Source: Echinarachnius parma (Eukaryota; Echinodermata; Echinoidea; Clypeasteroida; Echinarachniidae). From it: 64,000 bases of DNA. The DNA lies in NCBI GenBank assembly GCA_037951105.1, contig JBAMJV010009412.1:1-64000 (forward strand), given 5' to 3'. This document shows positions 9,701 through 63,564 of this stretch, in pieces. The notes under the pieces are model-generated. The model made no database searches and was not told the DNA's origin. It worked only from the letters and a program-made list of their open reading frames with translations. Numbering within the stretch: the first letter of the stretch is position 1; each line of letters starts with the position of its first letter. The position numbers and the translations under genes are program-made.

Positions 9701-12700
9701 TTAGTAATCTTTAAGAATAGCCTGTAAAGAGAGAATTTTTTGGGAATAATTCTGAGAACCATACAAAAGCCACCAAAATTTGTTTTATAATCTGAAAAAT
9801 GTGCCCTAAACTCCTCTTTGCCTTCCTTCATTCTGGTGATTAGTAGATCTTTGAGAGAACAGCCTAATACAGGGTGGCCCCCCAAAAAAACGGAACGAGG
9901 CTCTTCCCAAAATATAATAACAAAATTATTATGTTCATCGGATGGGATAGGGTGTCCTTTCCAATGAAAAACGATACCAAGAACGGTCATTTTGGTCGTG
10001 TAGTTTTTGTGTTAGGGCGCTGTGAGTGACAACATGGCAGGTTCCAATTTTTGTCATTTTTTACCAAGTCAGTGTCTGATAAATCGCACTTACTGCCTGT
10101 CATCGCATCGAACAACAAACTTATAATTAAAATGTTTATAAAATTACAATCAGTAAGCATGGTAAGAATAGAAATAAACAAATAAAACAATCATAAGACA
10201 AGACAGAACAAAACAAACACATGATGAACTGCAGGAACCTGAACATGCTGAAGATTGTGAGGAATGACAATGCAGAAGGAGAAGAGTTGAGAAGCAGGCA
10301 ACAGTTGGAATATATTTATGCAAGTAGCATTACTGAAGAAGAAAAAATGTTTTCATATAAATAAAAACAAAATGCTGTCTTATTCTTAGTGCATAAATTC
10401 ATCATAATATATATTTAAAATACAGTCAAACCCATCTATAGTGGCCACCCAAGGGAGACAAGAAATGTGGCCACTGTGTCTGTAGACAGGTAACCTCTCT
10501 ATATAGACAGGTTCAATTACACTGTTTTTCTCTGCAAGGGATCACTTTGAGTGGCCACTATAGGCAGGTTGGCTGCTATAGACAGATGGCCGCTACGACA
10601 GGTTTGACTGTACAATCTTATAAGTTATATTGCTTGTTAAGCTAAGAAGAATAAGAATTAGACATACAATTACAATACAATTACAATACAAATTGTAATT
10701 AATTATGGTCGATAATTCAATGTTTTTTTTTTAATGACCATTATTCAGTGGGGGAGCAAGCACCAAATAAGCAGGTACCTGCGAATATGCAGGTACCTGC
10801 AAATTCGCAGGTTTTAAGTCGTAAAAACTGCCACAATTAACAAGGTCAACCTGCATATTTGCAGGTTGAAAACAGATACTAGTCTGTAGCTCCTTAAGTC
10901 TTGAAAACCGCACTTTCTAACATAGTTCATTGGAAAGCACATACAATTTTACCCCAGTATGCAGTTTAAAAAAAAAATTACGTGTCTAATTTTCATTAGA
11001 GGGCTGAAAACACGAGACTATCATGATCGGTATGATCGATCGGCAGAGCAGCGGGCGCGATCGCGATCGCAGTGTTGAAGCTAGCAGGCTAGCTTTACTC
11101 ATCAGCTGGGCCACGTAACCTGCAAATATGCAGGTTTGGCTCGCGAGTGTTTATGACCTAACTTACGGCGCAAATGCAGGTAAAAGTCCCCTGGTACTGA
11201 TTGATTTTACGACCTCATCATCTGAATAATTTTTTTTCTGTTAGTGTTAAATTGAAGAGGGCAAGCACAGCTAGCCTAAGGATTGTTTATGCGTATGCTT
11301 TGGTACGTGGGAATGAGATATTATTGGGACATATTAGGTGTGAGTGTGTGTGTGTGTGTGTGAGTGAGTGGGAGGGGGGGGGGGGGATGTGGTAAAGGAT
11401 ACATGATCGGTGATAAGTATTACTTACAACTAGCTGTACCCGCGGAAATCCGCGGGTTTTTTGTGAGAGAAAGGCGATGATGATATAGCGATACTTTAAA
11501 ACTTTATTATTCCCAAAGTCATCACTTAAAGGTAGCGTTGAGTATTGGTATTTCCCGAAGTGCCCCTGATAATTGTTTGTAAGATACGGAAGAACTAACT
11601 GTCAAATTTGAAAGAACAAACAATTTTAATGACAGAATAAACTTTATTTGATCAAAATCGGTTCAGAAACGGATGAAATATCCAGACCATAAAAATATTT
11701 GTATTAAAAAATTCTTCACCGGGGGAAGGTTGTTGATGATAATCTCTATTGAATCATTATTTTAACAAAACTTTAAATGCACACTTTTGTATGAAAATGG
11801 TCAAAACCAATCACTCTTTTAGAGAGCGCCCTCTTGAGTTGCAACGACTTTTTATGAATGATAACAGAGGATTTACTTAGTCGTTTGTAATTGTGTATAC
11901 TTTTCGAGCATGGTGAAGTTTTAACTATTATTTTGTACCGTAATGGTGCAGGTTTTGATTACTAAAGTTAAGTTTAACCAATACTCAACTATCCCTTTAA
12001 ATAGTATACTATAGGACAAAATAAACACGGGCGACTCAATCCCGCCCCACAACACGTCGGGGCCCCGTCCAACGATGTCATCCGGTCAATGTATTACATT
12101 AGATACAGTTCACTATATAATATGCTCGTGTACTTGCTAATAAAGTAGCTTTGCCGCTCCACCCCACCCCCCCCCCCCCCCCTCCCTCGACCACAATTGC
12201 CTGCATGACACATAACCCCGTGTCCCCTAAGCTTTTCATATCCACACTAAATTCTTCGGCGTATATATATTTTGTCCTATTCTTGTCAAACCAGATGATG
12301 AATGTTCTTTGAAGGGAATAGTAGCCGTCTATATGCCTACATGTATTGCATAATAAATGAGCAGATACCTCCCACATCCATTCTCCCCCCCCCCCCCCCC
12401 CGGGCCCCCAGACGTCTTCTCTGGTATAGTACAAATGTAGTAGCTTCCACTGATTCACGACTGGCATAATACAATAATCTTACCGCAAGTTGGCGAGGTT
12501 GTATAATCGTGTATGGAGCGAATGAGCAAAAGAGTGACCATTGTCGATGGTCAGTGAGCTATGCAAACAAACTCCGCTACGGCGGGGTGATTAAGAAGAC
12601 TCCGTGGCTTAATACACAATGCACAGCCTTCTACCTGAGTGTTATCGAGCGCAGCTAAATTGAAGCTGTTGTCATTTTATCGTTACTGCCTTTGCAAAAA

Positions 12701-15700
12701 CGATGCCAAACGGGAATAGCGATCATTACCATACCATCCGCCTAATATAAAAATTGATATTTTTTAAAACCTGGGTAGTTTTGCAACGTGTAAAATTCAG
12801 AAGGCTTTCTCAATATAATATTCGTTTTATCGACTCCGTTTTATATTCGTCGAACAAAGTTGCGGCGATAAATCGTTAGTCAGTGCTCGGCGCCTTAACT
12901 TTAGCAACCGGCATTGCTGACTTTCCCTTTTCTTCGATCTGGAGGACGACCACGGGGCGGGGGCGACTCGCGAATACCTTATTGTCCTCCGCAAAACGTA
13001 TATCCTTCGATCCCGACGGTCGGGGAGTCGCCGAATTCTCGGGGTGAGGATATCTCGAGTGGGACACATTTGGGGGATTGAAGCTTACCGTATTAATATA
13101 ATAGATGTATTCATTATATGTTTATCTATTATATTAATACGGTAAGCTTCAACCCCCCCAAATGCCTCCCACTCGAGATATCCTCACCCCGAGAATTCGG
13201 CGACTCCCCGACCGTCGGGATCGAAGGATATACGCTTTGCGGAGGACAATAAGGTATTCCCGAGTCGCTCCCGCCCCGTGGTCGTCCTCCAGATCGAAGA
13301 AAAGGGAAAGTCAGCAATGCGGTTGCTAAAGTTAAGGCGCCGAGCAATGACTACCGATTTACCGCCGCAACTTTGTTTGACGAATATAAAACGGAGTTTA
13401 AAAAGCAAGATATATATTACGAAACAATTCAAAGTTTACGAGTTGCAAAACTGTCCAGTTTTGGATGAATATAAATTATTATTATCACGCAAATGGTCCA
13501 TATGATCCGTAAGTTTGAAATTGACAACGCACTGTAACGACAACGAGTGTAATAGTAGCTTAGTTCAATAGTTTCGTCATCGTTGTTTTGCGTGTGTTAT
13601 TCGCGAGCCCACATGCTTTGTACACAGCTGAGCGAGCGAGCTAATCCTTTTGTACACGGTGCAATTGTGCATTGAAGTGAATATAGAACGGGGGGAACCA
13701 TGCTTGAGGGGAGTTTCTTTCGTATTTATATATTGACCAGGGCATCGGCTAATCTTGCTAAAATCGCTCCATGGTATAATGTGCAATATCGCCACCCTGT
13801 GACAAGATGTGTTACAACACGCACAATGAAAGAAGGATATACCATCTCGCATACCATCTCGCAATCCGCTCAGGATTGATAATACAAAATGATTATAAAG
13901 AGTGTCATTTTATTAAATGCATGAAGAGACAGCTGTAAGCGTTTCCTCCATCGCAATATATCCCCGGGTTTCACATTATGATAAACGTATAACAAGGGAT
14001 GATACTGAAATTGGAAATCAAACTTTTAGGACAAAATCCTGCAGATTTGGAAAAGGGGAAAAGGCGATCACCCCCCCCCCCCCCCCCTACCTGCCTACTA
14101 TCTTCGCAACAAAAAATAAAACAACGAAAACGCATCAAGCGCATGTTTTTGTATTTGATAAGTTTGTCATGCATACAATTTCATCGTATTTTCATTATTA
14201 TAATTATTTGTAACATTTAAACAGAGTGTACCGGGGATATCCGATGGGTCGGGTTTATCATGTTCACTGAAAGGATGTATCGCAATGACATGTGCAAAAG
14301 AGCGGGGTGGGGGAGGGGTAGCACGCCTGTGTCTCTTTTGTTTTGAAACCATGTGGATAGGGACGTTTTAAATTAGTTTCAGAGGTCGTTGTGTTCTTAA
14401 AATCGTGATGGCTTTTCACTGAAAAAAAAAAACCCCGCGGATTAGAAGACACGAGGTTATGTGCCAGGCAATTGGACTCGCGGGGAGGGGGGGGGGGGCA
14501 GCGGCGAAGCTACTATATTATCAAGAACACGAATGTAGTGGACCATAATTATGAAATATGGGGGATAACTTTGCATGGGTACTGAAACCATCATGATTTT
14601 GTTATACATTGGCCGGATGTATATTGTTGACCAGGGCCCCGACGGGTTGTGGGGCGGGATTTAGTTGCCCGTGTCTATTTTGTCTCACTATTTAAAATGA
14701 TGGCTATGGGAATAGTATAGTTTTAAAGTGTCGTTATGTCGTTATCGCCTTTCTCTCACACAAACCCGCGGATTTCCGCGGGTACAGCTAGTGTTTAATA
14801 TTCAAGAAGTGTATTTCTTTCGTTATTTGACTATTTTATTATCATGTTACAATTTAGTCCATACATGTTGATGACATGTTTTTAATATTCAAGTGCATTT
14901 ATTTCGTTATTCGTATTAGTATTCTGTATCATTAATTCGATAAGGTGGAAAATGAATAAATTGAATCAATGAATTCAATCAAGTATGTAAGGTGATTAAT
15001 ACTACTTCATCTATCATTCAAATTCTAATTGTTCTGTTCTCTGATCATGAATAAAAAGTTCACATTGAAAACATATATATGTATACTCGAGCCTCAATAA
15101 TCTATATAAATTCTGAAAGAGTATGACCAAGGATATTCCTATATTTGTACATTATTTTGTACCCCTATTTTGTGCCTCACACTCTATGTAGTTTTGGGTC
15201 TTGGCCTTTGACCCTTGGTAGCCACAGTTTTATGGCCTTGGCTAACTGGTATGTTCATCGATATGATGTGTACATGTACTTGTTCAGCAAGATGCAACGC
15301 AAGTGGTACTGTACACTGGACACTGTATGACTATGAATATGCCCTTTTCCCTTTGGTGGAGAGAGGCTGTGCAAATGTATTGTATGTCATTTGATTTAAA
15401 ATAGTGTTGCACATACCCATGATACCGGTAAACGTTATCATTTTGAATATGGCTCTAGTTTTTGTTAACATGTCAAAAAGCTTAACGGCACTTTGAGGGT
15501 ATATCATTTCATATTCAGTAATAACTTTCATGTTAATTTAGTTTAGAAAAATAAATGAATATCTTTACTACTCCTTATGTTTCTTTATTTGATTTATCTT
15601 TTTCTCTTGCATTCAGGTAATTGGCACACAGACAAATATCAGCAATGGTCGTCTCTACATTATTTTACATACAAACATGCATGTTGTTCCTTTAGATTTA

Positions 15701-18700
15701 TTATTTTGTTAATTGTTAACAATTTTGGATTGTTGATACTAACAGTTTTGTTCATACTCATTTACAGTTATTTATTTCACAAATATAATTGCTGACACTT
15801 CAGTATTTGCCAATTCAATTCCTTTCATATTTGCTTTCACAATGTTTCATTATGCAAATTTGTTTTCTGTTTTTAAACTCCTGTCAATTGCTAACAAATA
15901 ACCTTTTAAATTCTCAAACAGAATTGCATTTGCCTACGATGCTTTTGGGCTGGTTTTTATTTAAAAATACATTGTTGCACAAACTTAAATTTAATTGGAT
16001 GCTTCACATTTCCTAATGACTAAGTTTCCACTTTTGAAATGCATTACATGTACATTGAGTTTTATTGACAAGTTCATAGTTTTAAGACTAAACCTATATT
16101 TCTAAATGTACCAAACACAATTTCAAGATTCTACAGTCAACATGTCAATGAACTTTGGTTGCTCTATGGTGTGAATGAATTAATTAATTAAATAATTATG
16201 TACAATAAAGTAGTTATACAACTCTAGAACAAGTCCATTCTTTAGCACACCAATAACTTAAACTCCCTCCAGAGTCCAGATTATGTTGCAGTTGTCTTGC
16301 AATTATTCTAGTTGCTTTGCACTAAGTCCAATACCTGGAGAAATTAGGAAAATAAAATAAAACAGGAGACTATTTAATAATTTATTTTATATTTATATGT
16401 CTCTACTTATTATAAAAAGGTACATTATTAAAACAGTAACAGAAATAAAATTCACATTATCAATGAACTTGATAATGATATCAATAAAAATTGCTTTACA
16501 TGTAATAAACTACCCTGCTCACGGACAAAACAAAGCCAGCCCAACAATACGTATACCGAAAAGTATAATAAATCTGAAGTGAAGAAAGAAATGCTTCCGA
16601 CTTGCTTTATCAGACATTGACGTTTTCGAGTTCAAAGTAAATTCCAAACAAAATATCGGTCAATATTTCTGTAGATTATACTTTCATTATAGCATGATAT
16701 GTCATATCATCGGAGAATAATACAATTTACGATGAAAACATCGACAATAAATGACGCAATTTTGAGAATGTTTGCGGGCAATTAGACCTAGAGAGCGCGC
16801 GCGGGCTCATTCACAACATATTATTGTACCGTATGTGCATGCGACTGAGATTTCGGGGGGGGGGGGGGGGGTTCGTCTTCGTTCATGCTAGAAAATCAGT
16901 GTTATCGAGTTCAAAATGCATTCCAAACAAAACATCAATGAATATTTCCATAGTTTGCACCTTTATTATAGCATGAGATTCCAAATCATCGAGGGAAAAG
17001 GACAATTTACGATCTAAACTAATGACGCATTTTTGTTGTTGTGACAACGATCGTGCGGACATCGCTGTTAAAAAAACATCAACGAAATGGACATGGCGAT
17101 TATCACAACGGGTTATTACAACAGACGGAATAATAAAAATTCACTTTCATCTTTCAGAAATTTAACGTAAAATACATTTGAAACTATTATTAATTCTACT
17201 ATAGGTGTTGATAATATAAGCCAGATGTTTGAACACCAGGAAAGAATTCATTACAAACGAAATGCCGATAACATTCACAATCACCCCTTACGAAAGTGGA
17301 ATGTCTCGTTATCAGTAAAGCAATTTTCATTGATATCACTATCAAACAGGCCTGCTATCAAAGGGGTAGTTCAGTTTTGATAGAGGGAGCGCTGCACAAC
17401 ACAATTTTGTTGTGAGGTAATAACAAACCGAGTGTCAAATTTGAAAGAGCATGCAATTTAAATTGCAGAATAAACGTTATTTAGTCAAAATCGGTTCAGA
17501 AATGACTGAAATGTCAATAACTATATCGGATCGTATATTTATTTGGTAAGCACTTCGGGCTCCCATTCTCTGTGATTAGCATCCTAACCCTATCATGCCT
17601 ATAGGATACCTGTAAAGTGTAAGATATTGCACAAAATTACATTTGAGACTTCAATCCTATATATCAATATCATATGTAATTTTTTGTCGAAAAAAAAGCG
17701 TCGTAAGAACTAGTCCACTCCAATTTGGACCGTGGCAAATTTATTTTATCCCAGTTTGGACAGTGGTGAATTTATTTTATCCCTGCCCGCTCTTGCCTGC
17801 TAGAAGGAGACTAAATAAGATCTGACTATTTGTGTCGGTCGATCAGTCGACTTCAACAATGATCACGGTCTATAAACAAATAAGATAAAGAAAGATACCC
17901 TTAATTAACATCAGAATATAACATAATCCTCTATCTCCCCCCAAGTCTTTGGTGCCAAAAAACCGAAAGTCTAACAGTGCGACAAAGACTTAAGATATGA
18001 CTCAATGATCAACGACAAGTATAACAATGTAAGAACAAGAAACGTAAACGCGAACCAGGCTAAAACGAAACCTAACACATGACGGAAGGTCATCAAAGAA
18101 CTACCAAAACAATAAATGCAATAGCCAAATATCATGTTAAAAGTCCAAGACATAGGGCAAATCGTTCGAGTGTCAATGTCACATGTCATAATCTGAGTGC
18201 CAGGCGGGTTTGGCTGGGCGACGGGTAGATCGCCTAGAAGGAGCACTGGCCGGTCTGGGGGGCTGGGAAGGCGACAACGGAGGGTTAACACCGACGGGCG
18301 TTAGCGGCCGCAACTGCGTGTCGACAGACGAGGGGACAGGATCAACCACAGATGGGCGAAGAGGACGACGGGGCGTGCCATGGACCATTCCAGAAGAAGC
18401 GGCAGGGGTCGTTGGCGTTGCCCGGGCAGGGGGCATGACAGGTCCCGGCGGGCTGGTGGCAGGGGTGTCAGGGCACGTCAACGGTGGCGGCAGGGCTGTC
18501 GCAGGGCCGGAAGCGGGATCCCCAGGCCGATCAGTAGGACGCGGCAGGGCCCCAAGGTCTGGCCGCAGGATGGGCTGCCGAGTACCCTGACGAGGTGTGG
18601 CAAAGTCACCGTCCATCACCAAGGGAGGGGGTCGTGGGTACACTGGAACGTACTGTCTCAGGAACTTCCTGTTCCGTAGTGTAACTCTCCCGGAGCCGTC

Positions 18701-21700
18701 GACGCGGATCACGTATTGGTCGAACTGGCGTACTTCGACCACTACCCGTCTTGTCCCATTTAAGGGGGTGGGAACCCATCTGGTTCTGTACGCGGACATG
18801 GTCACCAACCGTAAGGGGCGGAAGTCGCTTGGTGTGCTCCGACCAGCGTTCAGCGCTTCTCATGTGGCGATTGCGCAGCGCATCTTCCCGAGCCGCGAAG
18901 GTCTCGCACCAAGTGCGGTGAGGCTCATATTTGCCGGGCGCAACCGGGATGAAGTCCCGAATAGGATGACCGAATACGCACATGGCGGGGGAGAGCTTGG
19001 TGTCCCTGTCAGGCGTGTTCCTGTACTGAAGCATCGCACGTTGGAATGCGTCAGTGTCAAGGGCACCGGTAGGGCTGGTGTTGTCCAGGAGAAGGCGCTT
19101 GACCGTCTTCACACCCACTTCTGCGCGACAGTTGCTATGGGGGTATGCCACGGAGGAGAGGCGATGATGGATACCCCAGTCCTGGAGGAATCGACGTGTG
19201 GCTGCTGCCGTAAATTCAGGGCCACCATCTGAGGCCAGCTCGTCAGGGATGCCGAATGTGACAAAGATGCGTCGCAGGCAAGCGGTGAGGCCATCTGCGC
19301 CGTGGGTAGACCTCTCAACGATCGGCCAGTTGGAGTATCGGTCGACGACGACCAAGTAATTGCAGCCTTTGTAATGGAAGAAGTCGGCACAAATACATTG
19401 GAATGGGTAGACCGGGGACGTCAGCGGAGTTGGCGGCGAACTAGGGTTGGACGGCGCGATCCGATTGCAATGGTCGCACCTAGCACGAAGGGTGGAGATG
19501 GCAGGTGTGATGCCAGGCCAGAAGACAGATGCCTCTGCCCCGGCAGTCATGGAGGTGACCCCCTGGTGGGCAGCATGAAGGTGGGTCAGCACTTCCTCCC
19601 TGAGAGAAGGGGGGATAACCACGCGGTCCTTGTAAAGCACAACTCCGTCAACTGTATAGAGATCGTCCCGAAACTGGAAGTAGTCACGGAGGGGGCCTGG
19701 GAGTTCATGGCGGAAGGCTGGCAGGCCGGACTCGACGAAGCCAACGAGGGAATGCATGTCCTCGTCGCTGGCTGTAGCAGTACGCACCCTGTCCCACGTG
19801 ACAGATTTGAGGCGAAGGGAGTCCAGGGAGGACACGGAAGACGAGAGGATACCTGATTCGATGGCGTCAGCATCCGTGTCAGCGCGAAAGCCAGCCATGA
19901 GTGTCGTGGGTTCTGTCAAGTTGTTTGGGGGAGGACCAATGGTCGCGACATCGTCAGGCAGGTGAAGCTTCAGAGGCGCACCAGTCGGGTGACGTGAGAG
20001 ACAGTCTGTTGCACGGTGTCGGACACCTGGGACATGGACGATCCGGAACCTGTATCGCAGGGTTTTCTCTTTCAAGTTCCTCAGACGGGGGTTGGGGATG
20101 TCTGCCAGGGAGCGGTCAGTGAGGATCTTCAAGAGGGGCTTGTGGTCGACAGCAAGGATGAGGTCCTCACATCCAAGTACGAAGTATCTGGCCTTGTCTA
20201 GGGCATCAGCCACGGCGAGGGCCTCGCCTTCGATCGGAGCATAGCGCGATTCAGCGGCGTGCGTGAACCTGCTGCCTACAAGCGTGATTTGCCATCCCGT
20301 GGGACAACAAAATGGTTCCGAGGAATTGCAGGTGCAGTGTTTCTGGAGAAGCCAGAAGCCAATGCCATGCTTTGACCAATCTGTAGCCAGGCAAGTGGGC
20401 TTGCTCGGGTCAAAGATCCTCACACCCTCTTCGATTTCATTGGCGATGATGGCTTTGGAGTCATCAAAGGCACTCTGGAGGGCCTCGTCCCACGTGAAGG
20501 CTGTGGCAGGCTTCAGGAGCTGGCGGAACGGCAGCATCTTTGCAGTCATGCTGAAGGCATAGGACACTTGGTTGACAAGCCCGAACCAAGAGCGCACGTC
20601 GGTGATGTTCTTTGGTGTCGGGAAGTCCAGGATGGCCTGTAAGTATTTCTTGCATGGACGGACATTGTCGGGGGTGATCTCAAATCCAGCAAACTCAACA
20701 ACATCTGCGCCCAGCACGAACTTGTCAGGGTTGAGGGTTACGCCATTCCGACCGCAGACATCCAGCCACTCGACAGCTTGGAAGTAGCTATCCGCCAATG
20801 TGTCCGCCCATAGCAGGACGTCATCCACACATTTGGTTTTGTTGTGAATCTCCGCACGACATTTTAAAATTCATCATTAAGAAGAACTTCTTGCCATTTT
20901 AAAGTGTAACAATTCGTCGTTTTAAGGAGTTTCATGGGGAAAAAACATCAAATCGTACCCAAAGGAGTGTCAAGACAAGATACAAGACCGAAGAAGAGGG
21001 TTGACCGTGATCATAAATAAGATCTGACTATTTGTGTCGGTCGATCAGTCGACTTCAACAATGATCACGGTCTATAAACAAATAAGATAAAGAAAGATAC
21101 CCTTAATTAACATCAGAATATAACATAATCCTCTAGAGACAAACCCCACACATCCACTTAACGAGATTGATCTACTGGGCAGCTCATTCACGTAAGTGGA
21201 TATATGTGGGGTTTGTTGCCTTTTAGCAGGCAAGAGCGGGCAGGGATAAAATAAATTCACCACTGTCCAAACTGGACTATAGCCATGAACTGACAATCGA
21301 CATTACATCTTTGTAAACAATTTTACCCCTACCATATCAGAATTCAGCGATATGATACATTGTATCAATATGAAAATATAAACTAATATTTTCCTAATCA
21401 TATTGCCTAAAAAAGAAAACGAGACCTTTTCTCAAGCCGATGGTTACGAAAAATAATAATCACGAAATGCACACAAACATGGTGTTATTTCCGCTATTAA
21501 AAGGGACTTATCATTGTCCAAATCCTCAAAATCAAATGTGAATTCTAGCGGTTCCCTCATACCTTGTTGATTCGTATTAACAATAAAACAATGGGACCGG
21601 TTTCGGTTTTTCAAATTTCCCTTTCGTTACAAAGATATATGTACGATTGAAGTGTTCAGATAGTAAATTATCCGTTGGATTTTCGAAACCGTGTACAAAG

Positions 21701-24700
21701 TGAGTGCAGTGAGTTAGTAAATATATCTTTGCATTTTTGCTCATTCCTCAGCCATATAACATCCCTTTACATTGAAATGTTCACACAACACCCAGTGGAC
21801 ATATCAGATAACAATAATACAATATATTGCATCAATCATTCATTACTTTTAGCACATGTCAACAAAGTTAATATATCCCTTTAAAGGGACTTAGTAACAT
21901 TGCCCGAATCCTCGAAATCCAATTGAAATTCTAGCGCTTCCCTCAGTAGTTTTGGTAAGGCTGAACCTGTCCTGTCCTGCACAGTAACATTACAAACTTG
22001 TATTTGTTTTTTATTTTATTCATTTATATCCCCACCATGCTCGAAAGGTACATACAAAAATATAAAACAAACGACTATTAGTAAAAAGCCTGTTATCATT
22101 CAAAAATCGCCATTACTGAACACAAGAAGGCGCTCTGTAATAAGGCATCAGTTTCAACCATTTTTCATACAAAATTATGCATGTGATGTTTTGTTGTCAA
22201 ATGACTATTTAAAAACCGCTTTTGACATTTAAAAAAAAGTTTGTTAAAATTGTTTTTGTATTTTACGATCGGATATATTTCAGCCATTTCTGAACCGATT
22301 TTGACCGAATAAAGTTTATTCTGCCATCTGCATGTTCTTTCAAATTTGACACTCAGTTTGTTAATTACCTCACAACAAAAATTGTGTTGTGCAGCGCTCC
22401 CTCTACCAAAACTGAACTACCCCTTTGATCGTGATATCAAATTGCTTTACTGATAACAAGACATTCCACTTTCGTAAGGGGGTGATTGTGAATGTTATTG
22501 GCATTTCGTTTGTAATGAATTCTTCCCTGGTGTTCAAACATCTGGCTTATATTAGCAAAACATATAGTAGAATTAATAATAGTTTCAAATGTATTTTAAG
22601 TTAAATTTCTGAAAGATGAAAGTGAATTTTTAGTATTCCGTATGTTGTAATAACCCGTTCTGATAATCGCCGTGTCCATTTCGTTGATGTTTTTTTAACA
22701 TGCAGCGATGCCCGCACGATCGTTGTCTCAACAACGAAGATGCTTCATTAAATTAGATCGTAAATTGATCTTACTCCTCGATGATTTGGAATCTCATGCT
22801 ATAATAAAGGTGCAAACTATGGAAATATTCATTGATGTTTTGTTTGGAATGCATTTTGAACTCGATAACACTGATTTTCTAGCATGAACGAAGACGAACC
22901 CCCCCCCCCCCCCCCGAAATCTCAGTCGCATGCACATACGGTACAATAATATGTTGTGAATGAGCCCGCGCGCGCTCTCTAGGTCTAATTGCCCGCATAC
23001 ATTCTCAAAATTGCGTCATTTATTGTTGATGTTTTCATCGTTTTTTAATTGTATTATTCTCCGATGATATGACATATCATGCTATAATTAAAGTGTAATC
23101 TACAGAAATATTGACCGATATTTTGTTTGGAATTTACTTTGAACTCGAAAAACGTCAATGTCTGATAAAGCAAGTCGGAAGCATTTCTTTCTTCACTTCA
23201 GATTGATTACTTTTCGGTATACGTATTGTTGGGCTGGCTTCGTTTTGTCCGTGAGCAGGCCAGCAGGGTAGTTTATTACATGTAAAGCAATGTTTTATTG
23301 ATATCATTATCAAGTTCATTTTAATTTAAGTCTGTGCGCATTGACAATGTGAATTTTATTACTATTAATGTTTTTAAAATGTACCTTTTTATAATAAGTA
23401 GAGACACATAAACATAAAATAAATTATTAAATACATGTATACAGTCTCCTGTTTTATTTTATTTTCCTAATTTCTCCAGGTATTGGACTTGGTGCAAATC
23501 AACTAGGATAACTGCAAGACAACTGCAACATAATCTGGACTCTGGAGGGAGTTTAAGTTATTGGTGTGCTAAAGAATGGACTTGTTCTAGAGTTGTATAA
23601 CTACTTTATTGTACATAATTATTTCATGAATTAATTCATACACACCATAGAGCAACCAAAGTTCATTGACATGTTGACTGTAGAATTTTGAAATTGTGTT
23701 TAGTACATTTAGAAATAAGTATAACATAGGTTTAGTCTTAAAACTATGAACTTGTCAATAAAACTCGATGTACATATAATGCATTTCAAAAGTGGAAACT
23801 TAGTCATTAGGAAATGTGAAGCATCCAATTAAATTTAAGTTTGTGCAACAATGTATTTTAAAATAAAAAACAGCCCAAAAGCATCGTAGGCAAATGCAAT
23901 TCTGTTTGAGAATTTAAAAGGTTATTTGTTAGCAATTAACAGGAGTTTAAAAACAGAAAACAAATTTGCATAATGAAACATTGTGAAAGCAAATAATGAA
24001 AGGAATTGAATTGGCAAATACTGAAGTGTCAGCAATTATATTTGTAAAATAAATAACTAAATGAGTATGAACAAAACTGTTAGTATCAACAATCCAAAAT
24101 TGTTAACAATTAACAAAAAAATAAATCTAAAGGAACAACATGCATGTTTGTATGAAAAATAATGTAGAGACGACCATTGCTGAGATTTGTCTGTGTGCCA
24201 ATTACCTGAATGCAAGAGAAAAAGATAAATCAAATAAAGAAACATTAGGAATAGTAAAGATCTTCATTTATTTTTCTAAATTAAATTAACATGAAAGTTA
24301 CTGAATTTGTGACATACATGTACATATACAATGTACATGTACACATGATATCAATGAACATACCAGTTAGCCAAGGCCATAAAACTGTGGCTACCAAGGG
24401 TCAAAGGCCAAGACCCAAAACTACATAGAGTGTGAGGCACAAAATAGGGGTACAAAATAATGTACAAATATAGGAATATCCTTGGTCATACTCTTTCAGA
24501 ATTTATATAGATTATTGAGGCTTGAGTATACATATAATATATATGTTTTCAATGTGAACTTTTTATTCATGATCAGAGAACAGAACAATTACAATTTGAA
24601 TGCTAGATGAAGTAGTATTAATCACATTACATACTTGATTCATTGATTCAATTTATTCATTTTCCACATAATCAAATTAATGATACAGAATACTAATACG

Positions 24701-26407
24701 AATAACGAAATAAATGCACATGAATATTAAAAACATGTCATAAACATGTATGGACTAAATTGTAACATGATAATAAAATAGTCAAATAACAAAAGAAATA
24801 CACTTCTTGAATATTAAACATAAATATATAATGAATACATTGTAAGTATTAGTACTTATCACCGATCATGTATCCTTTACCACATCCCCCCCCCCCCCCC
24901 CCGCCTCCCACTCACTCACACACACACACACACACTCACACCTAATATGTCCCAATAATATCTCATTCCCACGTACCAAAGCATACGCATAAACAATCCT
25001 TAGGCTAGCTGTGCTTGCCCTCTTCAATTTAACACTAACAGAAAAAAATGTATTCAGATGATGAGGTCGTAAAATCAATCAGTACCAGGGGACTTTTACC
25101 TGCATTTGCGCCGTAAGTTAGGTCATAAACACTCGCGAGCCAAACCTGCATATTTGCAGGTTACGTGGCCCAGCTGATGAGTAAAGCTAGCCTGCTAGCT
25201 TCAACACTGCGATCGCGATCGCGCCCGCTGCTCTGCCGATCGATCATACCGATCATGATAGTCTCGTGTTTTCAGCCCTCTAATGAAAATTAGACACGTA
25301 ATTTTTTTTTTAAACTGCATACTGGGGTAAAATTGTATGTGCTTTCCAATGAACTATGTTAGAAAGTGCGGTTTTCAAGACTTAAGGAGCTACAGACTAG
25401 TATCTGTTTTCAACCTGCAAATATGCAGGTTGACCTTGTTAATTGTGGCAGTTTTTACGACTTAAAACCTGCGAATTTGCAGGTACCTGCATATTCGCAG
25501 GTACCTGCTTATTTGGTGCTTGCTCCCCCACTGTTATTGTATGTTCATTGTCCACTGATAATTGACATTGTATGAATTGATTATAGTTCTAGTAGCTCTA
25601 GTAGTACTACTAGTTGTATGATTAATTGTAAATGTACAAGGCCCTAAAATAATATAATACAAATTTTAAAAATACCTTTGTTGGAATTGGACATCCCCTC
25701 TGAACATCGTCAAGTAGCGCCCGGAATCCGGCCCCTTCCACGATGCTAACCGGCAACAAATCCTCCACTAACATCCTGAAAATCTTGTTGGTCAGTACAG
25801 AGGGGGCTCTAGTTTCAAAGTTGGCAGTCGGCTTCCTTTTCTTGAACAGTGTTGTTTCGCCCATGAAGAATTTATCACCACTTGCATTCGAAGGCGAGCC
25901 GATGGCGCTGCAGCTGTAGCTCTTCGATTTCTTTGACTTCTTCCTCGCCGGCGCGGCCCCGTGCGCTGACCCGCGCTTACCGGGTTCGTTCCCAAACTCC
26001 GCTGCCTCATTTCCTTGGATTTCTGTCAGCTCTTCCCCATTAAACCCATCCTCGTGCCCACCTTGCTCTCCTCCATTCGTCCCATACGAGTCATTTAAAC
26101 CGTGTTTAGGTCTACCTCGGTATGGCTTACTTTTCGGTTTGTACAGATCGGAGTGACGGCTGATAAGATGATTTCGAAGATTCGATGTTCCACTACGACT
26201 TGAAGCGGTTAGCAGCAAACCGCACAACTTGCAGGAAACTTGACGCGTATTCGGCTCGCGGGTCATGAATTTCCAAACATCCGATCGGCGATTGCTTCCA
26301 TGGGTGCCGCTTTTTACATGCTGATGTTCGTTAATTTGCGGAGTTTCCAGCTCGGTGGTGACTTCACCGATCTCTTGAATAGCAGCAAGCTCCATCTTTA
26401 TATCCAT
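6791..26407 (-). CDS. BED zinc finger, hAT-derived protein (ZBED-like gene 1)
   Basis: Three exons, 26407-25676, 9369-9169 and 7984-6791, join in phase 0 to give 708 residues. ATG at 26407 (MDIKMEL) is the first ATG in frame. Residues 42-85 form a BED finger (VWKF; C59, C62, H80, H85). A basic, Ser/Gly/Glu-rich linker (PARKKSKKSKS) follows, then DLLPVSIVEGAGF, the usual start of the hAT body. Exon 2 has CDLWTD (D278), the position of the first catalytic Asp. Where an active hAT enzyme has TDNA the protein reads VVYGTEC. The dimerisation motif begins at DPLNWWQLNESRFP (640), but the SER.FS segment after LCVPA is missing. Known: BED proteins bind DNA, and many are domesticated hAT transposases. 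Inferred: a DNA-binding nuclear protein without transposase activity. Intron 1 (16.3 kb) contains the giant palindromic element. Donors and acceptors are GT/AG (AAAG|GTAT, ATAG|GCTG, CCAG|ATCG). Confidence 0.85.
8315..9082. repeat. Repeat element with TGACCTTGACCT modules, in intron 2 of ZBED gene 1
   Basis: Four to five units of about 130-150 bp share GACCTTGACCTTTGACC, CCCCAAAATTGTATGGC and GGCTCCTTAAGATACAT. The block starts near GCGCAGTCGAAATGATGCC and ends CGTTGGCGGAGGCATAA, a terminal sequence common in marine-invertebrate repeats. It contains several TGACCT half-sites: TGACCTTGA at 8473 and 8608, TGACCTTTGACCT at 8760 and TGACCTTTGACCC at 8898. No coding frame. Confidence 0.65.
9455..9872 (-). 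repeat. Decayed tandem copies of the 5' half of ZBED gene 1 exon 2
   Basis: Upstream of exon 2 (9369-9169) the intron contains at least three eroded partial copies of its acceptor side: about 9455-9600, 9661-9726 and 9776-9872. Each keeps pieces such as TTAGTAGATCTT, ATCATCxxCTGCAAA or CTCTCCCTTCCTTCA (plus-strand reading), plus the AACAGCCTAT-like acceptor. All have indels that destroy the frame. They look like local tandem duplications of an exon edge. Confidence 0.6.
9873..10422. other. Intron sequence, possible single end of an unknown repeat
   Basis: From 9873 the sequence CAGGGTGGCCCCCCAAAAAA resembles the end of a dispersed element, but no matching far end was found. The rest, to 10422, is featureless AT-rich intron. 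Confidence 0.3.
10423..10610. mobile_element. pogo-like MITE, CAGTCAAACCC family
   Basis: CAGTCAAACCCATCTATAG at the left and ACAGGTTTGACTG at the right are inverted and flanked by TA on both sides. The interior repeats TGGCCACT and ATAGACAGGT motifs typical of such elements. 188 bp, non-coding. Confidence 0.7.
10778..11134. promoter_or_regulatory. Left subterminal palindromic boxes CCTGC-N6-GCAGG
   Basis: Four 16-bp boxes, at 10778-10793, 10796-10811, 10850-10865 and 11119-11134, all fit CCTGC[AG/T]AT..GCAGG, for example CCTGCGAATATGCAGG. The first two are separated by only TA. Subterminal repeats near element ends usually bind transposase; that role is inferred here. Confidence 0.6.
11430..13105 (-). 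mobile_element. Non-autonomous Helitron, left copy
   Basis: Read on the minus strand it starts TCTATTATATTAATACGG at 13105. It ends with the GC hairpin CCCGCGGATTTCCGCGGG (11439-11456, minus strand) five bases before CTAG (11430-11433). TC start, 3' hairpin and CTRR end are the Helitron hallmarks. It inserted between A and T without target duplication: host ..ATACA and TTGTAAG flank it. No Rep/helicase frame is present. A secondary 470-bp insertion (about 11526-11998) interrupts it relative to its partner at 13125-14791. Confidence 0.85.
11526..11998. mobile_element. Small element inside the left Helitron
   Basis: This block is absent from the otherwise matching right Helitron. Its ends are imperfect inverted repeats: AAAGGTAGCGTTGAGTATTGG at the left against CCAATACTCAACTATCCCTTT at the right. 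Related sequence (GAACCGATTTTGA..AATAAA, CTTTCAAATTTGACA) recurs in the giant element's arms near 17350-17560 and 21950-22440, and at 58900-59060. Confidence 0.6.
13125..14791 (+). mobile_element. Non-autonomous Helitron, right copy
   Basis: It starts TCTATTATATTAATACGG at 13125 directly after host A. It ends with hairpin CCCGCGGATTTCCGCGGG (14765-14782), TACAG and CTAG (14788-14791) before host T. It is homologous to the minus-strand copy at 11430-13105 and faces it head to head; only 19 bp of host sequence (13106-13124) lie between the two 5' ends. It contains poly-C and poly-G runs and no replicase gene. Confidence 0.85.
14792..17802. repeat. Left arm of the giant element, inner part
   Basis: Mirror image of about 21224-24820: GTTTAATATTCAAGAAGTG, the TGACCCTTGGTAGCCACAG stretch, the CTCCAGAGTCCAGATTATG stretch and a 17-nt G run (16855-16871) all reappear inverted in the right arm. 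Short open frames here have inverted counterparts with differing lengths and no recognisable product. Confidence 0.75.
17812..17933 (-). repeat. 3' LTR of the Gypsy element
   Basis: 122 bp matching 21014-21135 base for base as far as read by eye. Adjacent on the internal side is the polypurine tract at 17934-17942 (minus-strand GGGGGGAGA). Confidence 0.8.
18179..20865 (-). pseudogene. Gypsy pol remnant: RT end, RNase H, integrase
   Basis: The open frame enters just before the reverse-transcriptase active-site motif, read as KCVDDVLLWAD. A stop codon about 14 codons upstream of that motif marks a deletion junction. RNase H follows (TDWSKHGIGF; EGEALAVADALDKARYF; DHKPLL; ATDCLSRHP). Next come the integrase HHCC finger (HLHAAHQG..CDHC) and an integrase core with D..D..E in ICADFF, SDGGPEF and NCRAEVGVKTVK. 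Near 18745 the frame shifts: one frame has WDKTG and the other continues VVVEVRQFDQYVIRVDGSGR, the normal C-terminal integrase continuation, into a proline-rich tail ending HSDYDM at 18179. A truncated gene with one frameshift, not a host gene. GC content is higher than in the surrounding DNA. Confidence 0.85.
21014..21135 (-). repeat. 5' LTR of the Gypsy element
   Basis: 122 bp, the partner of 17812-17933. No clear tRNA primer-binding site was recognised in the bases that follow it on the minus strand (21013 downward). Confidence 0.8.
21224..25533. repeat. Right arm of the giant element
   Basis: About 4.3 kb, inverted relative to 10746-17802. It lacks the Helitron pair (empty site at about 24820-24842). 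It carries about 600 bp not seen in the left arm, mainly 21490-22260. That section includes two CTTTAAAGGGACTTA.. short repeats and sequence similar to the small element inside the left Helitron. A poly-C run (22901-22914) mirrors the left arm's G run. Confidence 0.75.
25145..25501. promoter_or_regulatory. Right subterminal palindromic boxes CCTGC-N6-GCAGG
   Basis: Boxes at 25145-25160, 25414-25429, 25468-25483 and 25486-25501 mirror the four on the left side of the element in order and spacing. Confidence 0.6.
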
Positions 26408-27208: not shown

Positions 27209-29770
27209 AGGGAATCACCAATCCACCATTATAGAAACAATCAAAGTAAAATAAGTAATAATCAGCGTAAGCAAGGTCAACAACAGCCATGGTTCGATAT
27301 TGAATGTAGGGAAGCTCGGAAAGAATATTTGAATGTTAAAAATAGATGGAAGAGAAAGGTAAAATTGTTAAGGAACTCTGATGTTCCTGTTGATTCAGGA
27401 GATTATGATGAGGCAGGGAAATCTTATAGGAACTTGTTACGTTTTAAAAAGAGGTTATATTCTCAGAATTTGAATAAATTATTGCGTTCCTTGCGGACAA
27501 ACAATCCTAAGGAATATTGGCAGCTATTGAATGATAAGAAAGGACACAAAGGAAAAGATATGGGAAATTTTTTATTGAAGGATTTTGTAGATCATTTTAG
27601 TCGCTTAAGTTATAGGGAGGTTGATGAACCGGAACCCCCAATTGTTATGCAAGAGTTGTCTCAGGCAAATGTTTGTCTCGATGTTCCTATTACTTTGAAT
27701 GAAGTTGAGATGATGATTAAGAAGCTTAAGAATACTAAAGCGTGTGGAAGGGATTCTATTAGAAATGAGTTTCTTAAAAGTTGCTCACCGGAGATTCTCC
27801 AGGTTGTAGTAAAGTTTTTTAATGTTGTATTGGATTCTGGTATTGTCCCAACTGAATGGTGTATTGGGATAATAATTCCTATATTTAAGAATAAGGGCGA
27901 GAATGCAAACCCTGATAATTATAGAGGCATTACGTTATTGAGTTGCCTAGGTAAATTGTTTACATCAATTTTAAATTATAGGATCACCCAGTTCTTTGAG
28001 GATGAAAGTTTGTTAGGAGAAGAACAAGCTGGCTTCCGGTCGAATTATTCAACCACTGATAATGTGTATGTTTTAAAGTCTATAATTGATGTTTATTTAC
28101 AAAATTCAAAACGCCTTTATTGTGCATTTATTGATTATAAGAAAGCCTTTGATTTGATTGATCGTGCAGCACTGTGGGTCAAAATGTTTAGAATAGGAGT
28201 AAAAGGAAAGATTTTTAATGTTATAAGAAATATGTATAGGTGTGCTAAATCGTGTGTTGCTAACAAGGGAGAGATGTCTGATTTATTTACATGCAATATT
28301 GGAGTGCGTCAAGGTGAAAACCTGTCACCTCTCTTGTTTGCTATTTATTTGAATGATTTTCGACAATCTATTGGAAACTCGTGCAAGGGATTGGAGTTTT
28401 TGAATACTATTATTAAAAATAGGTTGCCTTTTGATGATGTTGAAATGTATAAGGATTTATTTTCGTTATTATATGCTGATGATACTATTATTTTGGCAGA
28501 AACTCCTGAAGAATTGCAAAAAGCTCTAAATGCAGTGAAAGTTTATTGTGATACTTGGCACCTAACTGTTAATGCCAGCAAAACGAAAATTGTTGTTTTC
28601 TCACGTGGGAAAGTTAGAAGAATTCCGGAATTTGTTTATGATGGTGGTGTACTGGAAGTTGTTTATGACTTTGTATATTTAGGGGTGACATTTAATTATA
28701 ATGGTAATTTTAAAAAGGCAATTGCTAAACAGGTCACACAAGCTAGAAAGGCAATGTATAGTATGTTAGTAAAGGCAAAGAGGTTGCATTTATCTGTTGA
28801 TACACAATGCCATTTATTTGACCACTTAGTTTTGCCAGTTCTATTATATGGTGCTGAGGTCTGGGGCTATGAGTGTATAGATCAACTTGAAGTTTTTCAA
28901 AGAAAATTTTTAAGAACAATATTGTTTGTAAATAAGTGTACACCTGACTGCATGGTTTATGGGGAAACGGGACGTGGTAAAATATTGGATAAAATTAAGT
29001 GTAGAATGATTGGATATTGGGTTAGGCTAGTTAAGGGGAAGCAATCAAAGTATTCATTGATTCTTTTCAAATGTCTTTTGAAGTCCCAAGCTGAAGCACA
29101 AAGTGTAAATAATATTAAGTCACAATGGGTTGAGTTCCTTGCAAACAGTTTCGATCTCGCAGGACTCGGGAACGTTTGGCGAGCCCAAGGAGAAGGATAT
29201 AGTGCTGCCTGGATTATGAATACTATGAAAATTAGGCTTTCTGACATTTCTTGTCAGGAATGGAGTGCAGCTACCTGGTCAAATAGAATTTGCACTAACT
29301 ATAGGATGTTTAAGAATAAGTACTTGCATATACTATGTCAGAAAGAAGCAATAGCTTTAAGTAAGTTTAGATGCAGATCACATAGATTACCAGTCAATAA
29401 AGGCAGATTTGATACAAATGTAGTACATGACCTGCAATGCCCACTCTGTACGTCAATAGACATTGGTGATGAATTTCATTATATTTTTGTATGCCCATTC
29501 TTTCAAAATGAGAGAAAGAAGTATATACCAAATAATTTGTGTGGTAGTAGCTTAAGACCAAGTGCATTGCACATGGATAAGATTTTTAATACAGTTCATA
29601 CTTGCCAGTTGAAGAAATTAGCCAAATTCGTTACCATAATTATGTCACATTTTTCTAAAGAGCCAAGGGTAGTTAGTAACCCTGTAAATGACATCCCGCA
29701 AGTGAGTAATATTATTAGGCACACTCGTAGCGGTAGGAGGGTGAATTGCCCAGTTCGCCTTGATCTGTAA
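27209..29770 (+). CDS. LINE (non-LTR retrotransposon) reverse transcriptase, 5'-truncated
   Basis: One uninterrupted frame of about 850 codons ends TAA at 29770. A TAA at 27206 closes the frame upstream. The N-terminal part has the linker PWFDIECREARKEY that normally follows the endonuclease, which is absent. Reverse-transcriptase motifs follow in order: NYRGITLLSCLGKLF, EEQAGFRSNYST, AFIDYKKAFDLID, GVRQGENLSPLLF, and LLYADDTIIL with the catalytic YADD near 28472-28483. The thumb and linker come next, then a C-terminal CCHC-type knuckle (CPLC..DEFHYIFVCPFF). The size fits the second ORF of a CR1/Jockey-like LINE without its front. The frame is intact and so probably a recent insertion, but without an endonuclease it is not autonomous. 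Codon use is strongly A/T-ending. Confidence 0.9.
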   Translation, partial: RESPIHHYRNNQSKISNNQRKQGQQQPWFDIECREARKEYLNVKNRWKRKVKLLRNSDVPVDSGDYDEAGKSYRNLLRFKKRLYSQNLNKLLRSLRTNNPKEYWQLLNDKKGHKGKDMGNFLLKDFVDHFSRLSYREVDEPEPPIVMQELSQANVCLDVPITLNEVEMMIKKLKNTKACGRDSIRNEFLKSCSPEILQVVVKFFNVVLDSGIVPTEWCIGIIIPIFKNKGENANPDNYRGITLLSCLGKLFTSILNYRITQFFEDESLLGEEQAGFRSNYSTTDNVYVLKSIIDVYLQNSKRLYCAFIDYKKAFDLIDRAALWVKMFRIGVKGKIFNVIRNMYRCAKSCVANKGEMSDLFTCNIGVRQGENLSPLLFAIYLNDFRQSIGNSCKGLEFLNTIIKNRLPFDDVEMYKDLFSLLYADDTIILAETPEELQKALNAVKVYCDTWHLTVNASKTKIVVFSRGKVRRIPEFVYDGGVLEVVYDFVYLGVTFNYNGNFKKAIAKQVTQARKAMYSMLVKAKRLHLSVDTQCHLFDHLVLPVLLYGAEVWGYECIDQLEVFQRKFLRTILFVNKCTPDCMVYGETGRGKILDKIKCRMIGYWVRLVKGKQSKYSLILFKCLLKSQAEAQSVNNIKSQWVEFLANSFDLAGLGNVWRAQGEGYSAAWIMNTMKIRLSDISCQEWSAATWSNRICTNYRMFKNKYLHILCQKEAIALSKFRCRSHRLPVNKGRFDTNVVHDLQCPLCTSIDIGDEFHYIFVCPFFQNERKKYIPNNLCGSSLRPSALHMDKIFNTVHTCQLKKLAKFVTIIMSHFSKEPRVVSNPVNDIPQVSNIIRHTRSGRRVNCPVRLDL

Positions 29771-51105: not shown

Positions 51106-54100
51106 TCACGATAGTATCGACCAGTTTTTGTGAAGGAAGATAAGTGGGGCTGCCGTCTCCTCTTCCAACAGCGCTCTCTTCATGTCCATTTTTGACGTCC
51201 CAGTGACGATGTCTCCCCAGTCTTGCGCAATCGCTGGAACAGCAAGGTAACACCGTGCGATCTTCGCTAGCTCTGGGAACTTGCCCTGGTTCATGCGCCA
51301 CCAGTCCAACGGGCACATGTCCCGCGCAAGGGGCGGATGCGAGAGGTACGTCGAGACCTCCGTGTCGGTGTTGCCGGGCTTCGCGTTAAACTCGTCCTCG
51401 CCGAAGAGACACAGGAACGGGGAGACGTTGCTGGAGGACTGGTCGTCCACCTCAGCATGCTGGGTGGAGTTAGCCGTCACCAGGTGCTTCAGGGCGTCGA
51501 TGACATCCAGCTTATCCTCGTCAGCGATGAACTTGAGTTGCTTGAAGCGCGGGTCGAGCAGCGACGACAGCATAGTGACGGACGACGGCATGATGGCGTT
51601 GAGGTCCCACTTGTCGCGGACTTCCTTCGCGATCACGGACAGGAACTCGCTGATGGGCGAGCCGTCGTCTTCCCTCCCCTCGCAGTGCTGCAGCATGCTG
51701 TGGACCACGGGTAACAGACACGCCACCGACCCGCTCTTGGTGTCGCTCAGCACCGTCAGTGCTGCCTTGAAGACCTGCAGGGACTGGGCCAGGTGGGTTA
51801 CCATGTCCCACTGGTCTTCCGTCAGGTAGGGCTGCTGGTTCTTATCATCCAGTAGCTTCACGGTGTCGACCACATCTCGAAGAGCCACAGCCTATCAATG
51901 GTGGGCAAGGAGAAGAAATAAATAGCTTTCATTAGTACATAGTCTACGGTCTATAGCCGACCTCTTGTAACCCCTTTGATCTTATATATCCAGGCTTTAC
52001 AGTTTTGCACAGCCTCTTCAGCATTCGTAAAGCCATCTCAATAATTTCCTTTATGCCATATCTTTACACTAACAAGTTCATTTGATTCTGTGAATAGTCA
52101 ATCCTGGTGACTATTAAAATTACCTTGTTATTTGGATGGACAAAATAAATACTATAATTGACAATTTGGATGGAAAATTAAATGTTCTATGAGGGTTTGT
52201 TTTATCACAGCTCTTTACAACAAGCTCTTGAGTTATGATTTCTGTGTTCATGAGTCCCGGGGCTCGCCCTTAGCAGTGGCCCGGGTGCCAATGGCCACCG
52301 TAAATTTAATTTGGCCATAAGAAAATCTTGTATAATTGTTAGGATCTACAGCACAAAAGTCTGGTAGGAGTCTGTCTAATGTCACTGTCATTCTCAACAT
52401 TTTGTCCACCTGAAAAAAAAGTTGAGTTTGAATCTTACCTTGATCAATGTATCAGCGGTGCTCAGCCACGCTCCCTTAGGGTTCTTGTCAAAGTCAATGA
52501 AATTCTTGTTCTCCAGTTTGGCAGTGGAAAACATGGCTTTGGCTTCCTCGTTTTGGTGGAGGTAGGACACGAGTTTGACCAGGTCTTCAATGGTTTCTTT
52601 GATCCTTGGAGTCTGCAGACCCAGCTGGACACACTGCTCCAGCTTCTCAGCTGCACAACTCATGCTGTCACAGAGCAGGTTGCTTCCCACCTAGTAGAAA
52701 CAACACAAGAAGATTAGAAATACTTGTTCTCCAGTTTGGCAGTGGAAAACATGGCTTTGGCTTCCTCGTTCTGGAGCAGGTACAACACCAGTTTGACCAG
52801 GTCTTCAATGGTTTCTTTGATCCTTGGGGTCTGCAGTCCTAGCTGGACACACTGCTCCAGCTTCTCAGCTGCACAACTCATGCTGTCGCAGAGCAGGTTG
52901 CTTCCCACCTAGTAGAAACATAAGAATATTAGAAATACTTCAATTTGGCAGTGGGAAACATGGCTTTGGCTTTGTTGTTCTCGAGTAGGTAGGACAAGTC
53001 TGACTAGGTCTTTGATGGTTCCTTTGAGTTCTGCAGACCTAGCTGGACACACTGCTCCAGAGCAGGTAGCTTCCCACCTAGAAACAACACAAGAGACTTT
53101 GGAATGCGTCAATAGGAAAAGGGCACACCAAGATATTAGAATAAGATAAGGACTCTAGTTTGACTAGTTCACCTAGTGTCTCTTTATCTGGATTGTATCT
53201 CATCTACAAACAACACAAGTTAGATGAAATGCTTTACTACAATACAGTTCGACCTAGATCTATTTCAGGTTGTACACCTGGGGGGTGTTGCATAAAGAGT
53301 TGCAAGTAATCACAAAGTTGCATTGATTCGCAAGTCAGAAAATGCTCCTAAATGGGCAATTCTGATTGGCCCAAGTGCACATGTTTTCTGACTTGCGATC
53401 AATCCCAACTCTTTATGCAACACCCCCCTGTTTGAGCAATGATTGAATAATTACATATGCTTTACTACAATACAGTTCAATCTATATATTTCAGGTAGAA
53501 CACCAGCTTGAGCCATGATTGACTCATTACAAATGCAGAGACGCGAGTAGAAACCAACGTACTTTACCTTGCCAACTTGCGCACCCTTCAGCATTCCTTG
53601 GCGGTTCATGACGGCTGTAATGCTCTCGAGGGAGAGCTGGTACTGGCTCAGCAGGTTACGTATACACAGGCTGAGTTCGCTGCAGGACGGCTTGATGGAG
53701 AGGCGATCCGTGCCCAGAACCCACGACTCTCTCGTCCACTGGTTGGTCAAGTAGTGGATGGTCAGCGTCATGTAGTTGCTCTTGTCACAGCCTGCCCACA
53801 CGTCGAACATCAGACCAAAGTTCTTGGCATCTTTGTTCAGGCATATCTTCAGCTTTTCCTGCAAAAAAAAGGGAGGAGAATCTTTAAATTCAAGTACAAA
53901 ATGATGCACTGTTATTAATGAATGAAATATTATGATCTCAACAAATATTGGTAATGATTTTTCTTTAGTTTAAGGTGCAACTTTTTTTAAAGAAGATTTT
54001 CTTTTTGTTATCAAACTTTAATGTATCTATCGTGGAAAGAGTTATTCAATTCATACCACCAGCCCGATCCTGTTCATATTTCACTGTGTATCGCATGCAA

Positions 54101-58575: not shown

Positions 58576-59074
58576 ATATCATTATTTTATTATGGTATTA
58601 TGCTGGCTTGTTTTGTTGATAGCAATGTTTATATAACTCATTACATTGATTTCTGGTCAAACAGAATTTTAGTAACTAAAACTTGTCATAATGTAATTTA
58701 TCATTAAAAACGGTTAATGATGCTTGAATGGTAGACAAACATATTATATACGGCCAAGTTAAAGTCCCGTTTTCAAAAAGTACCTGTTAACACAAAAGTG
58801 CGCTCTCCAGAGACCTCACGTTTTAACAATTAAAACCAAATCAAAATATGTGAATGTGATGTTTGGTAAATATAATGACCATTTTGGTATATTTTCAGAA
58901 ATGTAGGATTTATAAACGTTGAATAAAAGTTGGTCCCCAGCATTTATTCCGATCAGATGTATCTATGGATATTTCAGTAGTTTCTGGACCGATTTTGATG
59001 AAATAAATTTGCTTTTGTCATTTGATGAAAATCGGTTCAGAAACAGCTGGAATATCGATTATCTCCTACTCTAC

Positions 59075-60165
59075 CATAACCACCACCACCACTATGACCA
59101 TCACCATCACCACAACCTACACCAACCAATTCCAACTGCCTCAGGGCGCCTTAACCACTTTCACAACCAATGTGAATTAAACCATCACAATCATCATCGC
59201 AACCACAGCCACCACACACTAACATCTACTCCCATTACCACCACCACCTTCATCGCTATACCACATATATCACCCTCACTACCACAACCATTACCACCAC
59301 CACCTTCATCGCTATACCTCATATATCACCCTCACTACCACAACCATTACCAACACCACCTTCATCGCTATACCACATATATCACCCTCACTACCACCAC
59401 TATACCACCACCACCGTAATCACTACACCACCAATATCACCATTACAACCACCACCACGACCACCATCACAACCATTACCACCACCACCATAATTACTAT
59501 ACCACCAATATCACCATTCCTACCACTACCACCACCACCACAACCACCACCACCGTAATTACTATACCACCAATATCACCATTACTACCACTACCACCAT
59601 CACCACAACCATTACCACCACCACCATAATTACTATACCACCAATATCACCATTACTACCACTACCACCATCACCACCACCACCTCCACTATCACCACCA
59701 CCACCTCCACTATCACTACCACAACCGTTACCACCACCACCACCACCACCACCACCATCAATATACCACCAATATAAACATCACTATCACCACCGCAATC
59801 TTCATCACTATACCACCAATATCACCCTCACCACCTTCATCATTATACCACCAATATCACCCTCGCTACCATCACCGCTTCCACCACCAATATGCTACTA
59901 TTACCAGCATCGCCATCAATGCAACTACCCCACATTCCACTATCATCACCACCACCATACACTTTCACCCTGCCACCTTCATTACCACCAATCTTACAAT
60001 CACTACCATGCACCATCACCACTGCAACCATGCCTCTTATCTATTATCATTACCAACCATTCACAACTACCAGCATCACCATTACATGTACCATCAAAAC
60101 CACTACCACTACCACCACCACTGCAACCATATCTAACACTATTACCAAACGTCTAAAACTATGCT
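59075..60165. repeat. 1.1-kb CAC/CAT/CCA-rich satellite block
   Basis: The plus strand is almost free of G and built from CAC, CAT, CCA and ACT triplets. Longer units of about 45-70 bp (for example CTATACCACCAATATCACCA) are repeated at least eight times. Open frames through it (His-rich or Thr/Pro-rich) reflect composition, not genes. Confidence 0.85.
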
Positions 60166-63519: not shown

Positions 63520-63564
63520 CTGCAACAACAAAATAATAATAAATAATAATAGACAATAATACAT

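Follow-up and report, generated by a model that had tools for sequence, protein, structure and literature searches.

On the minus strand of the 64-kb window (the whole stretch of DNA analysed, 64,000 nucleotides), three diverged multi-exon ZBED/hAT-like genes lie in a row between 6791 and 56965. Their BED exons are found near 56.7, 38.8 and 26.2 kb, and the exons for the hAT C-terminal dimerisation domain at about 51.1, 35.2 and 6.8 kb. The C-terminal exons share 31–54% identity among the three genes. The BED exon of the third gene closes at a GT donor (25675/25676) and the next exon, recognised by similarity (9327–9175), stands behind an AG acceptor (9370/9369), delimiting an intron of 16,306 bp, 91% of which is spanned by a 14.8-kb element with inverted arms. 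According to this gene model, predicted from the similarity between the three copies, the element would sit within the intron of the third gene, and it accounts for one intron of ~16 kb in the source genome. To judge from its genes, the window is presumably animal DNA. Several other features were recorded in it. An 853-aa open frame beside the element (27209–29770) matches RVT_1 (E = 8e-37) and is presumably LINE-like, and a 218-bp tandem unit (52424–53060) lies over a ZBED-like gene exon, which tblastn finds at 52424–52690 and 52717–52908. A CAC/CCA-rich tandem repeat tract with long plus-strand open frames occupies 58916–60332, while 156-bp tandem repeats (62458–63579) fall within a TPR-like frame, with a TPR_1 match below the cut-off and what we take to be a resemblance to CDC27. 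Another foldback, small (about 400 bp) and containing 22-bp repeats, is found at 2133–2534; one of its arm pairs matches at 99% over 89 bp, the other at 94% over 50 bp. At gathering scores Rfam returned no match for the whole window, nor did ARAGORN run with the bacterial code.

Self-comparison placed the outer ends of the inverted arms exactly at 10746 and 25533, where the initial annotation had set them. The left arm starts at 10746 (plus strand) with the letters CAGTGGGGGAGCAAGCACC, the reverse complement of which closes the element, and the right arm ends at 25533 (minus strand) with the letters GGTGCTTGCTCCCCCACTG. The exact ends of 19 bp described in that annotation do match, but the terminal repeat is far longer, running for 483 bp from both ends without a mismatch. 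When searched with up to three mismatches, the 19-bp end occurred at two sites in the 64-kb window, namely the two outer ends, with no further copies, and two matches were obtained in 0 of 100 shuffled controls. Viral contigs gave no match to the 19-bp end. The first 16 bp of the element had at least 119 matching stretches in genome contigs; the matches listed come from prokaryote records, many of them of Streptomyces, and are taken as coincidence.

Directly outside the arms, TTATT is present on both sides (10741–10745 and 25534–25538) and is presumed to be a target duplication, as had been proposed. The motif is short and A+T-rich, and equal flanking 5-mers are expected by chance with a probability of 0.0015 on the basis of the window outside the element, or 0.0044 on that of the local flanks, figures that refer to a duplication length not set in advance. 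At E ≤ 1e-4, BLAST matched the flanks (10600–10745 and 25534–25700) to no other part of the window, so that a comparison with an empty site through the paralogous ZBED-like introns failed.

Near the left end, a subterminal array (10771–11181) contains ten ACCTGC/GCAGGT half-sites, with a mirror set at the right end. Eight of the ten are paired in four 18-bp dyads of the form ACCTGC-N6-GCAGGT, at 10777, 10795, 10849 and 11118. The concentration is marked, with ten half-sites in the left terminal 440 bp against 22 in the other 63,120 bp of the window, beyond the two termini; in 5000 first-order simulations, a terminal stretch of 440 bp held 0.24 half-sites on average and three at most. The dyads are presumed to be transposase-binding sites. 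THAP-domain sites within the long terminal inverted repeats (TIRs) of the transposon Galileo are the topic of a published study (PMC3688188).

The arms comprise an outer left part (10746–11429, plus strand), the first 483 bp of which are mirrored exactly at the right end, an inner left part (14792–17539, plus strand), and a right arm free of Helitron interruptions (22263–25533, minus strand). With gaps counted, self-comparison returned inverted matches of 98.1% (10746–11429/24840–25533), 95.4% (14792–15283/24328–24820) and 91.9% (15510–17512/22277–24309). The initial annotation had proposed aligning the arms to measure their identity; globally aligned over 3145 bp, they agree at 681/686 positions in the outer block, 475/487 in the middle and 1900/1972 in the inner one, corresponding to identities of 99.3, 97.5 and 96.4% from the ends inward when gaps are excluded. 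The arms thus differ by 89 substitutions (5 + 12 + 72), besides indels and private insertions. The ends are more alike than the interior (5/686 vs. 72/1972 substitutions, Fisher p = 1.6e-5), the difference between outer and middle blocks being less clear (5/686 vs. 12/487, p = 0.023); conversion, selection or chance could also be sources of the extra identity. A stretch of ~208 bp within 15284–15509 of the left arm is absent from the right arm. An internal duplication (16622–16739/16901–17019, 78%) is common to both arms and is therefore probably older than the mirroring. Net of two Helitrons and a long terminal repeat (LTR) retrotransposon, and with the central non-matching stretches included, the lengths on the two sides of the LTR insertion are 3723 bp (left) and 4398 bp (right), in agreement with the arm lengths of ~3.7–4.3 kb given earlier.

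The left arm is interrupted by two head-to-head inserts, one of 1676 bp on the minus strand (Helitron 1, 11430–13105) and one of 1667 bp on the plus strand (Helitron 2, 13125–14791), both of which begin with TCTATTATATTAATACGG and close with a CCGCGG hairpin and CTAG. Helitrons are defined by a 5' TC and a 3' hairpin followed by CTRR, and insert between A and T without duplicating the target. Judged against the uninterrupted target in the right arm (24820–24840), both inserts conform to this definition. Each insertion point falls between A and T, and the flanks together with the intervening 19 bp of target correspond by eye to an unbroken stretch of the right arm, apart from one difference in the 19 bp; both inserts are thus later arrivals. 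The two Helitrons are alike over their first 373 bp (88.6%), their last 101 bp (87.1%) and two shorter inner stretches (85.9 and 72.4%), and no match between them was found outside these four stretches. Being related and 19 bp apart, they jointly mimic a palindromic element of 3.3 kb (11430–14791). Interpretation of that span as a single 3.3-kb inverted-repeat transposon was rejected, as the 19 bp between its halves are right-arm sequence, save for the one difference.

An LTR retrotransposon on the minus strand (17812–21135), with a GAGAC duplication on both sides, is inserted in the centre. Its LTRs are identical, very short (122 bp) and have ends of the TA...TA type. A minus-strand frame of 754 aa carries RNase H, H2C2 and integrase domains, and the element's two longest minus-strand frames gave no match to gag or RVT_1; we infer an element of the Ty3/gypsy type. 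The LTR contains a site complementary to the 11 bases that follow the 5' LTR (minus strand), which suggests that the element may be self-priming. Self-priming elements of this kind include Tf1.

The earlier description of the 14.8-kb span as lacking a gene of its own holds for the arms, though not for the span as a whole, which contains the 754-aa frame of the inserted LTR element. With that element and the Helitrons excluded, stop-free stretches in the arms and centre reach at most 101 aa. Of the 56 such stretches with a length of 45 aa or more, 10 (not in every case the longest) were compared with Pfam and had no match above the curated cut-offs, the sole sub-threshold match being FixQ (E = 0.035, 14.5 bits against the 29 needed), and tblastn with the translations of eight hAT-like exons of the window found no match inside 10746–25533 at E ≤ 1e-3. 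Neither search showed a trace of a transposase in the parts of the arms that it covered.

The arms had been described as almost meeting around a loop of ~90 bp. Arm homology ceases at about 17539/22263, and the long arms are separated by two non-matching stretches, a left one of 179 bp (17540–17718), for which the right arm showed no counterpart, and a right one of 986 bp (21277–22262), which holds the rest of a repeat, here called repeat M, and other dispersed repeats; no mutual match was found between the two stretches. Between them lies a small palindrome, about 230 bp in all, which the LTR element splits into a left half with a 31-bp tandem unit (17719–17811, plus strand) and a right half (21136–21276, minus strand). 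When this palindrome is closed by eye, its loop measures about 32 bp; near-contact of the arms is therefore one of two readings, and the loop of ~90 bp is not secure. No clear target duplication of the small palindrome itself was established. Repeat M is present in the left arm as a truncated copy from about 17357 that ends where arm homology ends, and on the right it continues past that point; it also occurs inside Helitron 1 (11593–11915 vs. 22033–22358, 70%).

One way to account for this centre is that the transposon was an almost complete palindrome from the start, one arm having been mirrored all the way to the centre around a loop of ~32 bp, and that its asymmetry arose through later deletions and insertions. 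The short arms beside the LTR insertion point (17751–17807/21219–21275, 98.2% over 57 bp) reach almost to the centre by eye and have diverged about as much as the long arms, which speaks for this account. It nevertheless requires at least two further events for the stretches without a match (17540–17718 and 21277–22262), where insertion of a palindromic miniature element (MITE) in the centre requires one, and it sits poorly with the truncation of repeat M on the left at the very point where homology ends. We regard it as a possible but minority explanation. The preferred sequence of events, which is not proved, begins with a long-TIR element having a middle of ~1.2 kb, which then received a palindromic MITE and finally the LTR element; the small palindrome may accordingly be a later insertion, and this order is favoured because it is the simpler one.

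Taken as a whole, the 14.8-kb unit is probably a non-autonomous, foldback-like TIR DNA transposon, most likely hAT5-like, whose arms would have been made by copying one half onto the other. Mirrored arms, sharp CAGTG...CACTG ends, the TTATT pair and dense terminal dyads are all observed, so that this one locus displays both the sharp-ended terminal inverted repeats and the target duplication of a TIR transposon, and its build is that of a foldback, with very long TIRs, a variable middle and no apparent coding capacity. The mirrored sharp ends, TTATT and very long terminal repeats support, from a single locus, the original view that a foldback-like element moved as a unit. A relation to the hAT superfamily is probable because of the CAGTG ends and the 5-bp duplication, and the family is possibly an undescribed one. 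In the mechanism envisaged, repair of an excision gap would most likely have copied one half onto the other by a template switch, as proposed for Galileo, generating the long arms. Of the two halves, the right one was probably the source, since its copy of repeat M runs beyond the end of arm homology and the left copy breaks off there. Another element would later have provided the transposase that bound the subterminal dyads and cut at the ends, and insertion of the unit into the intron of the ZBED/hAT-like gene would have duplicated TTATT; both Helitrons and the LTR retrotransposon would have arrived afterwards.

Three further explanations were weighed against transposition as a unit. That the locus is an inverted segmental duplication which never moved, with TTATT a coincidence, appears unlikely; it is compatible with a single known locus and a flank match of 5 bp only, but both ends stop at the same base and carry transposon-like termini with dyad arrays, and the chance of the TTATT pair is 0.0015–0.0044. 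Two independent insertions of one ~3.7-kb element in opposite orientation would find a precedent in the Helitrons of the left arm, which show that head-to-head pairs occur at this locus; yet with up to three mismatches the 19-bp outer end was matched by no inner end, the 64 kb holding the two outer ends only, and we consider this origin quite improbable. Long inverted repeats are difficult for assembly, but a mirrored join is the least credible account of all, because the arms differ by the 89 substitutions over 3145 aligned bp, indels and private insertions, the Helitrons are confined to one arm with their target intact in the other, and the window contains no undetermined bases (N).

The element looks like a new example of a build, and of an arm length, already published. 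The closest parallel in architecture is offered by the long-TIR copies of Galileo (P superfamily), which, as far as they are described, are likewise gene-less, with two multi-kb arms, transposable-element insertions shared by both arms, and ends more conserved than the remainder. Copy 112 of Drosophila willistoni, for instance, is 9021 bp long, has TIRs of 4246 and 4680 bp, lacks a transposase and contains one inserted transposable element (PMC4168063), and it weakens the claim of the initial annotation that foldbacks of this length are rare. In the same account, insertions of transposable elements become part of both TIRs, TIR ends are more conserved, and defective copies are produced through gap repair with template switching (PMC4168063). 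Galileo differs in its duplications, which are of 7 bp and in three copies of 8 bp (PMC4168063), against 5 bp here, and in the P-type transposase of its relatives. Mirrored arms of such size can seed inversions, as is known for Galileo.

Tetris, which its authors placed in Mutator, has TIRs of up to 1735 bp, duplications of 8–10 bp and few complete copies (PMC4079207). It resembles the present element, as do other foldbacks, in its long TIRs, variable middle and non-autonomous state, and differs in its shorter arms and in a duplication longer than the 5 bp found here. CACTA elements start with CACTA/CACTG, end with TAGTG/CAGTG and make 3-bp duplications (PMC10741241), unlike the element, which starts with CAGTG, ends with CACTG and is flanked by 5 bp. 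A 5-bp duplication had been held to match no familiar superfamily, but this length is reported for hAT5, a named hAT group (Kapitonov and Jurka 2007, cited in PMC12730594), for ProtoRAG (PMC7481187) and for TDD-4/TDD-5 (PMC2836005). ProtoRAG has it in common with the element, although its TIR begins CACTATG (PMC7481187), compared with CAGTGGG here. Short TIRs and duplications of 8 bp are usual among hAT elements (PMC10741241, PMC3942097), in contrast to the kb-long arms and 5 bp of this element; the primer overlapping the TIR of the hAT element BuT2 nonetheless opens with CAGTG (PMC3942097), an end of the same type, and hAT5 agrees in duplication length. The 5-bp duplication therefore argues against the Galileo and Mutator foldbacks as families and is consistent with hAT5. 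A more speculative and rather doubtful extension is that a foldback lineage exists within hAT5, independent of the Mutator and P-type foldbacks, which would move ~8 kb of mostly mirrored DNA via 18-bp dyads and have its arms renewed from the ends inward by half-copying. Should the element indeed prove to be a foldback of the hAT5 group, the repair route proposed for Galileo would be generating mirrored arms of several kb in a further transposase superfamily.
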